From assembly GCA_913757435.1 (NCBI GenBank), contig CAJYDM010000002.1:186001-250000 (forward strand): DNA of 64,000 nt. The letters run 5' to 3'. Shown one piece after another: positions 10,902 through 15,221 of this stretch. The notes beneath the pieces are model-generated. The model was given only the letters and a program-made list of their open reading frames with translations, did no database searches and had not been told where the DNA came from. The stretch is from Syntrophomonas sp. DTU019. Its GTDB lineage: Bacteria; Bacillota; Syntrophomonadia; Syntrophomonadales; Syntrophomonadaceae. Within the stretch, counting starts at the first letter, position 1; every line of letters begins with the position of its first letter. The translations under genes were made by a program, and so were the position numbers.

Positions 10902-13900
10902 TCAGGCAAACAAATTTAATTGCGCGCTCTCCGGCAGTCCCTCCAGGCAGCCATATTTGCGCAGCATCTCCAAAGTGGTCTTGTTGAGGTGGGTGCGCAT
11001 CTGCATCTCCTCAATCGATAAAAAGGGTGTGTCGCCGCGCAGTTTGACGATGCTCTGGGCGGCTGCTTCACCTACCCCGGGAAGGGCCGCAAATGGCAAT
11101 AAGAGGCCGTTGCCCTTGATCTGGAAGCGGCTGGCGTGGGACTCATAGATATCCACCGGATAAAAACAAAAGCCGCGCGCATACATTTCCAGGGCTACCT
11201 CCAGAATCGGCAAGAGCTTCTTATCCTTACCCTCTGCCTGCTGTCCTTTTTTCTCGATCTCCTGAATGCGTTTTAAGATGGGGTTATAACCTCCCAACAT
11301 GCTCTCGATCTCCATGTCCTGTGCGCGCACACTGAAAAAACTGGCATAGAAAGCCAGGGGGTAATGGACTTTGTACCAGGCTATGCGGAAGGCCATAGTC
11401 ACATAAGCCGCAGCATGAGCCTTGGGGAACATGTATTTGATCTTGCGGCAAGAATCCACATACCAACGGGGGGTATCGCAGCTGAGCATGATAGCTTCCT
11501 CTTCATGATCTACCCCTTTGCCTTTGCGCACCTTTTCCATTATCTTAAAGGCCTGCTTCGGTTCCATCCCCAACTGAATCAGATAGAGCATGATGTCGTC
11601 ACGGGTGCAGATAACATCTTTCAACTGCGCCTGCCCGGACTGCACCAGTTCCTGAGCATTGTTGAGCCATACATCGGTGCCGTGAGAAAGCCCGCATATC
11701 CTGATCAGTTCAGACATGGTAGAGGGACGGGTAGTCTCCAAAATCTGTCGCACGAAACGAGTGCCGAACTCGGGGATGCCAAAGGTGCCCACCGTGCTGT
11801 TGATGACCCCGGCATCCAAGCCCAAGGGTTCTAGACCAGAGAAGAGCTTCATGGTAGTCTTGTCCCCCAGCCTGACCGAATTGGCTTTGACACCGGTAAG
11901 ATCCTCCAGTTGCTTAATGACGGTGGGATCGTCATGGCCCAGAATATCCAGCTTCACCAGTTGATCACCGATGGCATGGTATTCAAAATGAGTGGTGATT
12001 ATCCCCGATTCTTTGTTGTCGGCAGGGTGCTGCAGGGGGGTAAATTCCAATATGTCACGGTCCTTGGGCACCACAATCAGTCCTCCAGGGTGCTGGCCGG
12101 TGGTTTTTCTAACCCCGGTAATGCCTTGAACCAGGCGGTTGATCTCGGAATTCTTGTAATTCAGGTCGCGCTCTTCGCTGTATTTTTTCACATAGCCGAA
12201 GGCGGTCTTGGTGGCGATGGTTTGAACTGTTCCAGCCCGGAAGACATTCTCTCTGCCGAACAGTTCCTCCACATACTGATGAGCCCGGGACTGGTATTCC
12301 CCGGAGAAATTCAGGTCAATATCCGGGACTTTGTCGCCTTCAAATCCCAGAAAGGTCTCAAAGGGAATATCAAACCCGTCCCGCAACAATTCCTGGCCGC
12401 AACGGGGACAGTTTTTATCCGGCAGGTCAGCGCCACAGGAGACCGCCGTCGAAGCAAATTCGGAATACGCACATGCCGGGCACAGGTAATGCGGCGCCAG
12501 TGGATTTATCTCGGTTATGCCGGTCAGATAAGCCACTAGAGATGAGCCCACCGAGCCGCGTGAGCCTACCACATAACCGTCCTGGTTGGACTTATTAACC
12601 AGCTTATGAGCGATCAGGTACAACACACTGAAGCCGTGTTCGGTAATGGATTGCAGTTCTTTTTTGGTGCGATTCTCAACCACCTCGGGCAACGGATTGC
12701 CGTAAATCTCTGCGACCCGCTTCCAGGCCAGGGCAGTTATCTCTTCACTGGCGCTCTCGATTTGAGGAGGATAAAAGCCATCCGGGACCGGCTGCACAGC
12801 CTCGATCATAGCGTTGACCCGGTGCGGGCCATCGATTACTACCTCCCGGGCGGCATCTTCCCCCAGATAGCTGAACTCATCCAGCATTTCCTGGGTGGTG
12901 CGCAGGTAGAGGGGCTTGTCGGATTCGGCATCATCGTAACCCTGGCCGGCTTGAATGATGGTGCGCAGGATGCCGTCATGGGGATCTAAGACATGCACAT
13001 CCCCGGTAGCTACTACTGGTTTGCCCAGTTCCCTGGCCAGCTCGATGATGCCCCGGTTTAAGTCCATGAGGGCCTTGTCATCGGCCACCAGCCCCTTATG
13101 AACCAGGAACTCATTGTTGCTTAATGGCTGTATCTCCAGGTAATCATAGAAGTCTGCGATACGGTGCAGTTCCTGTGCGGAAGCCCGGTTCAAAAAGGCT
13201 TGGTAGACCTCCCCGGCCTGACAGGCGCTGCCTACCAGCAACCCCTGACGCAATCGCTGCAGCTCTGCTCTGGGGATGCGGGGCCGGTTCTTATAAAAAT
13301 ACTGGAGATAGGAAAGGGTGATCAGAGTGTAGAGGTTTTTCAAACCCTGAGCATTCCGGGCCAGGATAATCACATGGTAAGCCCGCTCCTTGAGGTCATT
13401 TTCAAACAGGTAGCCCTCCACTCCGTAGATTACTTTGATGCGGTGCTTACGCGCGGCATTATAAGCATCGGGGAAGGCCTGCACACAGCCGTGGTCGGTT
13501 ATGGCGATGGCGGGATGGCCCCATTTAGCAGCCCGGGCCACCAACTCCCCCACTTCAGCCAGTCCATCCACAGCACTCATCTTGGTATGGGCGTGCAGTT
13601 CCAGCCTTTTTACCGGGGCTTCATCGAGCCGCTGCGGGGCCTCTATGTTGTCAATAGCAACCGCGAACAGGACGGCCTCTTTGGCATAAGGGTCGTAACG
13701 CACATCCCCGGCGGCTGACATCCACTGCCCTAGGGAGGCTTTATCATCTTCGGGTTTATCAAGAAATTGTTTTACTATCACGCTTCCGGAAAAATCGGTC
13801 AGATAGTATTCCACCGCGCAGCGCCCGCCGCGAAGGGGTCGCATTTCCTTTTGCCATAGCTGCCCTTCCACCTTGATATTCTGCTGACCTTCCTGGAGAT

Positions 13901-14516
13901 CGGCCATCCTCACCGGGGAGAATTTTCGCCTGGCTCTGGCAGCAGAGACGGTTTTTTTGCCTGCTCTTGCAGTAGTGTCATAGTTAAGCACCTGGATTTC
14001 AGCTACTGGGATCAGGGTTGGGGCAGGTCCCTGGTTTATCTGAAGGGACACCTCCAGCTTGACCCGACAAATGACCATGATTCCATAATTATCGCGGAAC
14101 CAGGCTGAAATCCGCTGGCAACATCCATTCTCCAGCAGTTGGTTATAGTATCCTTCATTGTCAATGATGAGATCCAGGCGGTGATTCTCCACCGCCCATG
14201 ACACTGATTGGGCATTCGGTCCCAAAAGCGGCATTATGTCTTGCCAGCGTTCCCCCACCATATCCCGCAGGGTAGCATCATCGCTGCACTGAACGCACAA
14301 TTCCACCTGCAGGCCATCCATAAGACCCTGCAGGTGCTGTATGGTATCTTCCAGGAGGCTGGTCTTTACGGGCTGCCTAACCTCAACCGACAGGCGCCAT
14401 AATTTCTGGGAAGGATAAACCTCCACCCGGTTTATAACAGCACCATGCCAGGCCTCGGCCTGGCAGAATCCTGCATGCTTATGTAACAGCGCAAAGAAAT
14501 CTGCGCTCGACTCCAA
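10902..14516 (-). CDS. polC: DNA polymerase III alpha subunit, PolC type, lacking the exonuclease domain
   Basis: PolC is the main replicative polymerase of Firmicutes. Order seen: N-terminal domain (1-200), OB domain (about 205-290), PHP domain (about 305-515), then the polymerase core with a zinc module (C679, C682, C694, C703, C706), the catalytic PDIDLNF (731-737) and the C-terminal helix-hairpin-helix part. Canonical PolC has a DnaQ-like 3'-5' exonuclease of about 190 residues inserted in the PHP domain. Here KVIYGVEGYLFEND (361-374) runs straight into HVIILARNAQGLKNL, so the insert is absent and the protein is 1204 rather than about 1440 residues. PHP metal ligands (ELHAH, ITDHG, E367, H381, GDVH) remain. 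The start is TTG with a GGAG four bases ahead, so the exact start is uncertain. Confidence 0.95.
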   Translation of the reverse strand: MESSADFFALLHKHAGFCQAEAWHGAVINRVEVYPSQKLWRLSVEVRQPVKTSLLEDTIQHLQGLMDGLQVELCVQCSDDATLRDMVGERWQDIMPLLGPNAQSVSWAVENHRLDLIIDNEGYYNQLLENGCCQRISAWFRDNYGIMVICRVKLEVSLQINQGPAPTLIPVAEIQVLNYDTTARAGKKTVSAARARRKFSPVRMADLQEGQQNIKVEGQLWQKEMRPLRGGRCAVEYYLTDFSGSVIVKQFLDKPEDDKASLGQWMSAAGDVRYDPYAKEAVLFAVAIDNIEAPQRLDEAPVKRLELHAHTKMSAVDGLAEVGELVARAAKWGHPAIAITDHGCVQAFPDAYNAARKHRIKVIYGVEGYLFENDLKERAYHVIILARNAQGLKNLYTLITLSYLQYFYKNRPRIPRAELQRLRQGLLVGSACQAGEVYQAFLNRASAQELHRIADFYDYLEIQPLSNNEFLVHKGLVADDKALMDLNRGIIELARELGKPVVATGDVHVLDPHDGILRTIIQAGQGYDDAESDKPLYLRTTQEMLDEFSYLGEDAAREVVIDGPHRVNAMIEAVQPVPDGFYPPQIESASEEITALAWKRVAEIYGNPLPEVVENRTKKELQSITEHGFSVLYLIAHKLVNKSNQDGYVVGSRGSVGSSLVAYLTGITEINPLAPHYLCPACAYSEFASTAVSCGADLPDKNCPRCGQELLRDGFDIPFETFLGFEGDKVPDIDLNFSGEYQSRAHQYVEELFGRENVFRAGTVQTIATKTAFGYVKKYSEERDLNYKNSEINRLVQGITGVRKTTGQHPGGLIVVPKDRDILEFTPLQHPADNKESGIITTHFEYHAIGDQLVKLDILGHDDPTVIKQLEDLTGVKANSVRLGDKTTMKLFSGLEPLGLDAGVINSTVGTFGIPEFGTRFVRQILETTRPSTMSELIRICGLSHGTDVWLNNAQELVQSGQAQLKDVICTRDDIMLYLIQLGMEPKQAFKIMEKVRKGKGVDHEEEAIMLSCDTPRWYVDSCRKIKYMFPKAHAAAYVTMAFRIAWYKVHYPLAFYASFFSVRAQDMEIESMLGGYNPILKRIQEIEKKGQQAEGKDKKLLPILEVALEMYARGFCFYPVDIYESHASRFQIKGNGLLLPFAALPGVGEAAAQSIVKLRGDTPFLSIEEMQMRTHLNKTTLEMLRKYGCLEGLPESAQLNLFA

Positions 14517-14558: not shown

Positions 14559-15221
14559 CTAGTTCAACCGGTAGATACTCCTGATATTCTGCATCTCGCC
14601 CAGGCGTTCCACCACTTCTTCCACCGTAGTATTGGAAGGGATCTGTAAGAGCAGCTCTATCTCCAGGTCATCGCCCTCAAGGCGGTTGAGTTGTATGTTC
14701 TTCATCAATACGTTCATGTCGCCCAAAATTGAACCGATGACGCCCACCTGTCCGGGACGATCCTGGACCACCAACACGATGGCCTTATATTCGCGCCTTC
14801 CGGTGAAGCGATGTTCGAAGCGGATGAAGTAAATCAGTACAAACAGGATCAGGAGAGTGGTGGCCACGGCAGGAAGATATAACCCGGCTCCTACGGCCAG
14901 CCCGATACAGGCTACCACCCACAGACCAGCAGCGGTGGTCAGGCCTTGCACGGTGGAGCCTTCGCGCATTATGGTACCAGCCCCCAAAAAACCGATGCCG
15001 CTTACCACCTGGGCGGCGATACGCCCGGGGTCGGCATTGACGGTGTGGTAATACTGCAGGTAAATATCTATGGATACGATCATGGCCAAGGTGGAACCCA
15101 CACACACCAGGGTGTAAGTGCGCAGCCCGGCCGGGCGGCTCAGGCTTTCGCGCTCCAGTCCGATCAAGCCCCCCAGAATGCCAGCCAAGGCCAGTTTAAA
15201 AACAACCTCATAGATGGTCAT
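14559..15221 (-). CDS. MgtC/SapB-family membrane protein
   Basis: A 220-residue MgtC/SapB-family protein. The N-terminal two thirds are hydrophobic with about four or five membrane segments and carry the family motifs GGLIGLERE and GIGFLGAGTIMREG with LTTAAGLW. The C-terminal part, from about residue 145, looks like the soluble ACT-like domain (VVQDRPGQVGVIGSIL). Family members are linked to magnesium homeostasis and modulation of transporters or ATP synthase in pathogens; the function in free-living Firmicutes is unclear. It lies between proS and polC, an unusual place compared with Bacillus, where these two are adjacent. Confidence 0.9.
   Translation of the reverse strand: MTIYEVVFKLALAGILGGLIGLERESLSRPAGLRTYTLVCVGSTLAMIVSIDIYLQYYHTVNADPGRIAAQVVSGIGFLGAGTIMREGSTVQGLTTAAGLWVVACIGLAVGAGLYLPAVATTLLILFVLIYFIRFEHRFTGRREYKAIVLVVQDRPGQVGVIGSILGDMNVLMKNIQLNRLEGDDLEIELLLQIPSNTTVEEVVERLGEMQNIRSIYRLN

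Follow-up and report, generated by a model that had tools for sequence, protein, structure and literature searches.

A PolC-type DNA polymerase III alpha subunit without the DnaQ-like exonuclease domain in a Syntrophomonadaceae bacterium: a family-wide and repeatedly arisen variant

The window, that is, the whole 64,000-nucleotide stretch of DNA analysed, carries polC on the minus strand at positions 10902-14516. The open reading frame starts with TTG, has no internal stops and encodes a PolC-type DNA polymerase III alpha subunit of 1204 amino acids. The product exceeded the cut-offs of two curated PolC models (NF001688, 1475 bits against a cut-off of 873; TIGR01405, 1362 against 1043), and it aligned with G. 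kaustophilus PolC (3f2b) and with full-length E. faecium PolC (9qpc; PMC12592400). As judged by the curated models and these alignments, the product is a genuine replicative PolC. Its gene order is ordinary. The neighbours, with names that we read from their translations, are presumably proS, ispG, rseP, dxr, uppS, frr and pyrH on one side and rimP, nusA and infB on the other. Between polC and proS, a gene at 14559-15221 on the minus strand reads in translation as an MgtC/SapB-like membrane protein.

Pfam matches in the product comprised the PHP, polymerase, finger and helix-hairpin-helix domains, and the PolC domain order was present from an OB domain N-terminal to PHP through the polymerase core and helix-hairpin-helix region to a C-terminal clamp motif; all features below lie on the minus strand. 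The N-terminal domain (residues about 1-200; 13917-14516) is fast-evolving and had no Pfam match. It is conserved within the family, as matches begin at residue 4-22 in most Syntrophomonadaceae and near residue 200 in most PolCs from outside it. The OB domain (residues about 204-290; 13647-13907) was assigned from a beta-rich AlphaFold model (model residues 1-90) with structural matches to RPA-type OB folds. The first part of the PHP domain (residues 305-371; 13404-13604; PF02811) ends with strand 3 and carries H308, H310, D317, H342 and E367. The second part (residues 380-560; 12837-13379) carries H381, C432, D506 and H508; PF02811 matched as far as residue 461 and the ligand positions were checked beyond it. 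The polymerase active-site motif PDID (residues 731-734; 12315-12326) was invariant in 129/129 aligned PolCs, and the third catalytic Asp, D857 within KLDIL (residues 855-859; 11940-11954), was kept in all motif variants seen. A tandem helix-hairpin-helix region (residues 1119-1195; 10932-11162; PF14579) is followed by the sliding-clamp binding motif QLNLF (residues 1199-1203; 10908-10922), of the QLSLF type common to PolCs with and without the exonuclease domain.

The DnaQ-like exonuclease domain (Exo), whose insertion into PHP is a hallmark of typical although not of all PolCs, was not found in this product. The Pfam scan gave no PF00929 match at E <= 1 anywhere in the protein, and the alignment with 9qpc broke at query residues 373/376 and skipped about 205 target residues (431 to 636). 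Thus the claim of a sequence-only reading of this DNA, that the PolC has no proofreading Exo, was borne out, and the alignment with other PolCs that it had called for, made here with 3f2b and 9qpc, showed the gap against the full-length 9qpc. At the exact position of Exo in other PolCs, an 8-residue turn (residues 372-379; 13380-13403) links PHP strands 3 and 4. The reading had also joined the segment VEGYLFEND (366-374) directly to the following PHP strand. The PHP domain is indeed closed; HVIIL, however, is reached through LKERAY (375-380). In 180 PolC sequences the length of the stretch equivalent to residues 366-382 was sharply bimodal, 16-31 or 209-221 residues, with two outliers of 43 and 88 residues, both low-complexity linkers without exonuclease motifs. 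Exo is thus a module with fixed borders, either present or absent. An AlphaFold2 model of residues 203-676, built with 41 natural sequences, had a mean pLDDT of 91.7; at the junction a short turn connects its strands 159-169 and 178-184 (model positions), in a hairpin with block pLDDT > 90. The nearest solved structure by both sequence and fold was 3f2b.

A search of 1 kb around the junction for short repeats as a deletion scar yielded a single direct pair of 17 nt and a single inverted pair, both away from the junction. Beyond the junction itself, no residues distinctly marked Exo-less PolCs relative to Exo-bearing ones. Loss of the insert during assembly was ruled out, because the closed junction is common to the whole of the Syntrophomonadaceae in independent assemblies, including that of the isolate Syntrophomonas wolfei subsp. 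methylbutyratica JCM 14075; the bimodal lengths argue likewise. Exo was located neither elsewhere in the frame, where PF00929 had no match, nor beside the gene, the sole PF00929 gene of the genome lying about 50 kb away. Both circumstances named in advance as refuting the reading were therefore excluded. The polC of this Syntrophomonadaceae bacterium lacks the DnaQ-like Exo of about 200 residues.

The named relatives were Syntrophomonas and other Syntrophomonadaceae. PolC was matched in 50/54 genomes of the family (27 of the 28 good ones), and the matches covering the junction ran through it without an insert. In an even draw across the phylum, a PolC match was obtained in 148/199 genomes, which were classed as 84 Exo-less, 57 Exo-bearing and 7 fragments by match start and frame length, with an alignment check for about 120. 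Exo-less PolCs therefore make up 84/141 (60%) of the decidable PolC-bearing species and occur in 40/68 families, 38 of them wholly Exo-less; 28 families were wholly Exo-bearing and 2 mixed. One genome (G370) has two PolC genes, both apparently Exo-less (C5:40551-43400 and C16:26551-29493). The sequence-only reading had implied that the state is rare, and this was not supported: Exo-less PolC was first reported in 2013, in Clostridia and Negativicutes, in a survey that put it at 6% of PolCs and 16% of PolC + DnaE1 systems (Timinskas et al., PMC3919608), and it is common in the phylum. The difference from 60% is probably one of sampling, as the present draw includes many uncultured species. The draw also differs from the statement of a 2026 survey that PolC of Clostridia has an active DnaQ domain in most cases (PMC12926913). 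Searching the literature for Syntrophomonas together with PolC returned nothing relevant. Exo-less PolC is thus a known variant, and what is new here is its presence throughout the family, its frequency in the phylum and its repeated origin.

PolC trees were computed from the core sequences, without the insert columns, and were unrooted. The fewest changes of state were 8 with 129 rows (FastTree), 5 with 57 rows and 6 with 38 rows under a mixture model (bootstrap range 5-7). Forcing the Exo-less rows together cost 229 log-likelihood units, and a single Exo-less clade was ruled out by the AU test (p 2e-42). Exo-less PolCs are not one clade; at least 5-8 changes of state separate them from the Exo-bearing ones. 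The insertion site of Exo is identical throughout, and Exo and core distances were correlated (Mantel r 0.76; largest of 999 permutations 0.31). In one genome (G148), the Exo-less PolC L176 groups with the Exo-bearing L158 and L165, the latter from its own family (f20), and carries about 37 residues of low-complexity linker; it appears to be the clearest recent loss. The joint evolution of Exo and core, together with this nested case, argues for loss rather than repeated gain. On an unrooted tree, one old insertion followed by recurrent loss fits best and is the simplest reading; DnaE has no Exo at the insertion place of PolC and gives no polarity for gain against loss. Transfer of the PolC gene may have contributed. 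Another Exo-less PolC (L154; G115:C9:11500-16190), from a genome with no PF00929 hit, has at its junction an Ala/Pro/Glu-rich low-complexity linker of about 80 residues, which is possibly a relic of recent loss. Among the Exo-bearing PolCs, L175 (G239:C25:13200-17720; 1299-residue frame, 46% identity) is very divergent and sits on a long branch.

The nine PHP ligand positions of the product, H308, H310, D317, H342, E367, H381, C432, D506 and H508, are intact (HHDHEHCDH) and agree with the pattern HHDHEH[C/H]DH given in PMC12926913. The metal ligands had been described as kept, and the site is indeed intact; the list given was incomplete, and D341, which it included, is conserved but is not among the nine. 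When the 180 PolC sequences were aligned, all nine ligands were intact in 130/130 Exo-less PolCs and in 44/50 Exo-bearing ones, the other 6 having D506N. In our own reading, D506 is the equivalent of D226 of M. tuberculosis DnaE1. The PHP exonuclease of that enzyme, whose site holds three zincs, is abolished by mutation of D23 or D226, with D226N as the catalytic mutant, and PHP exonuclease activity is absent from G. kaustophilus PolC, in which one PHP ligand is changed (PMC5636811). The Exo insertion point corresponds to a loop lining the groove to the PHP site in M. tuberculosis DnaE1 (PMC5636811), and we infer that removal of Exo could open the PHP site. The full-length DnaE1 of the same genome (C1:1072634) also has all nine ligands (HHDHEHCDH), as does a second DnaE1-like polymerase with a 996-residue frame (L003; G000:C1:545704-546795 and beyond). 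A DnaE2-like protein (L004; G000:C4:27260-28333 and beyond) has Asn at the eighth ligand (HHDHEHCNH).

The explanation we favour, with reasonable rather than firm confidence, is that proofreading depends on PHP, probably with zinc, in PolC and/or its partner DnaE1. Under this explanation, Exo would have been lost from the lineage of a working replicative PolC and PHP strands 3 and 4 re-closed by a short turn. The three-metal PHP site of PolC would excise misincorporated nucleotides, in the manner of M. tuberculosis DnaE1; DnaE1 at the same fork would do so with its own PHP site, in addition or instead, and mismatch repair, for which MutS is encoded in the genome, would act as a backup. Exo would have been dispensable because clostridial PolCs still had an intact PHP site at the time of loss; in Bacilli, the PHP site is broken and Exo is retained. 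The intact ligands in 44/50 Exo-bearing PolCs indicate that conservation is not specific to the Exo-less state; the ligands could have a role in folding. The D506N cases, all Bacilli-like rows, are probably one lineage and one event, and the either-or pattern consequently rests on few independent points. That no residues beyond the junction clearly set Exo-less PolCs apart also counts against this explanation. No demonstration of exonuclease activity of a PolC PHP domain was found in the literature examined.

Other explanations were weighed against PHP-dependent proofreading. The function of Exo could have moved to a separate gene, with a stand-alone DnaQ-like exonuclease proofreading in trans. 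The genome encodes one such candidate, a 207-residue DEDDh exonuclease (L006:1465-2088; G000:C2:146250-146870), which is its only PF00929 protein (E 1e-14) and has intact DxE, HNAxFD and HRAxDD motifs. TIGR01405 and NF001688 also matched it through their Exo region, and its best NCBIfam match was PRK09182, below the cut-off. This gene counts against PHP-dependent proofreading, since it may provide help in trans. However, clear homologs occurred in only 6/54 family genomes and 2/4 members of the genus, and one of them (L055, in G014) is degenerate, reading DVATTG. The protein shares only 25% identity with a PolC Exo domain, and its neighbours, an ArsR-like regulator and an AddA-like nuclease as read from sequence, are non-replication genes. 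At E 0.1, PF00929 had no hit in 17/28 family genomes that were >= 90% complete, a PolC-Exo profile had none in 16/28 good family genomes, and PF00929 had none anywhere in three Exo-less genomes outside the family (G145, G148 and G115); as a positive control, the same model found Exo inside PolC in 13/13 Exo-bearing genomes. Absence from draft assemblies carries less weight than presence, but G037 and G145 each consist of one contig and are 98-99% complete. Transfer of Exo to a conserved separate gene was ruled out, because a stand-alone DEDDh exonuclease is missing from most of the family, and we regard proofreading in trans as improbable. The genome search for such an enzyme proposed by the sequence-only reading thus returned one gene, but not one conserved across the family.

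It is also conceivable that DnaE1 does most of the replication of both strands and that PolC has a limited role in which proofreading is not needed, a possibility raised by Timinskas et al. (2013, PMC3919608). The genome does encode a DnaE1 whose nine PHP ligands are all present, no PolC match was obtained in about a quarter of the phylum genomes sampled, and the 2013 survey notes Clostridia that contain DnaE1 alone and the co-occurrence of Exo-less PolC with DnaE1 (PMC3919608). Relaxed constraint, however, left no sign in the polymerase site, clamp motif or PHP ligands of PolC, and PolC was kept in 27/28 good family genomes, so that a marginal PolC seems rather unlikely. Weaker proofreading, with reliance on nucleotide selection and mismatch repair, would agree with the absence of Exo, the putative nature of a PolC PHP exonuclease and the presence of MutS. 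It would leave the full set of ligands in 130/130 Exo-less PolCs unexplained unless they serve the fold, and the state is old and widespread, which argues against a short-lived mutator; we consider it improbable. The sequence-only reading had left PHP proofreading, a separate exonuclease and lower fidelity side by side; the comparative data favour the PHP domain and weaken a conserved separate DnaQ-type exonuclease.

Extended to the phylum, PHP-dependent proofreading leads to a more tentative proposal, for which the chances are a little short of even. In most PolC-bearing lineages the PHP three-metal site would proofread and Exo, inserted once long ago, would have disappeared on many occasions, so that PolC would switch repeatedly between two unrelated proofreaders and never be without both. 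Reviews and drug-target studies present PolC as a polymerase that contains its own DnaQ exonuclease. If Exo is missing from most species of the main PolC phylum, the enzymes of B. subtilis and E. faecium are atypical. Repeated losses of Exo provide natural pairs for asking whether the PolC PHP domain proofreads, and the interest lies in this natural experiment rather than in a single gene.

Compared with known systems, the gene belongs with the Exo-less PolC subclass of Timinskas et al. (2013, PMC3919608): it has no Exo insertion, a host of the Clostridia/Negativicutes, as judged from its named Syntrophomonas relatives, and a DnaE1 partner, and it shares the enzyme class, the missing insert, the PolC + DnaE1 setting and the conserved PHP site. 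When that survey appeared, no system with PolC + DnaE1 had yet been characterised; the present draw differs in the higher share of Exo-less PolCs and in their several origins. Canonical PolCs (B. subtilis; E. faecium 9qpc) likewise have the N-terminal domain, OB, PHP, polymerase core, helix-hairpin-helix and QLxLF clamp motif, but differ in the roughly 200 residues of DEDDh Exo inside the PHP domain, and the Bacilli type also in having Asn as the eighth PHP ligand (ATGNVH). The G. kaustophilus construct 3f2b has a closed PHP domain without Exo, as here; there, Exo was deleted to obtain crystals (PMC12592400) and one of the PHP ligands is altered, whereas the present PolC is naturally closed and naturally has an intact site. 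M. tuberculosis DnaE1 (PMC5636811) shares the intact nine-ligand PHP site and the absence of an embedded DnaQ domain. It is a DnaE1 and not a PolC, and its PHP activity has been shown experimentally, whereas that of PolC is predicted.
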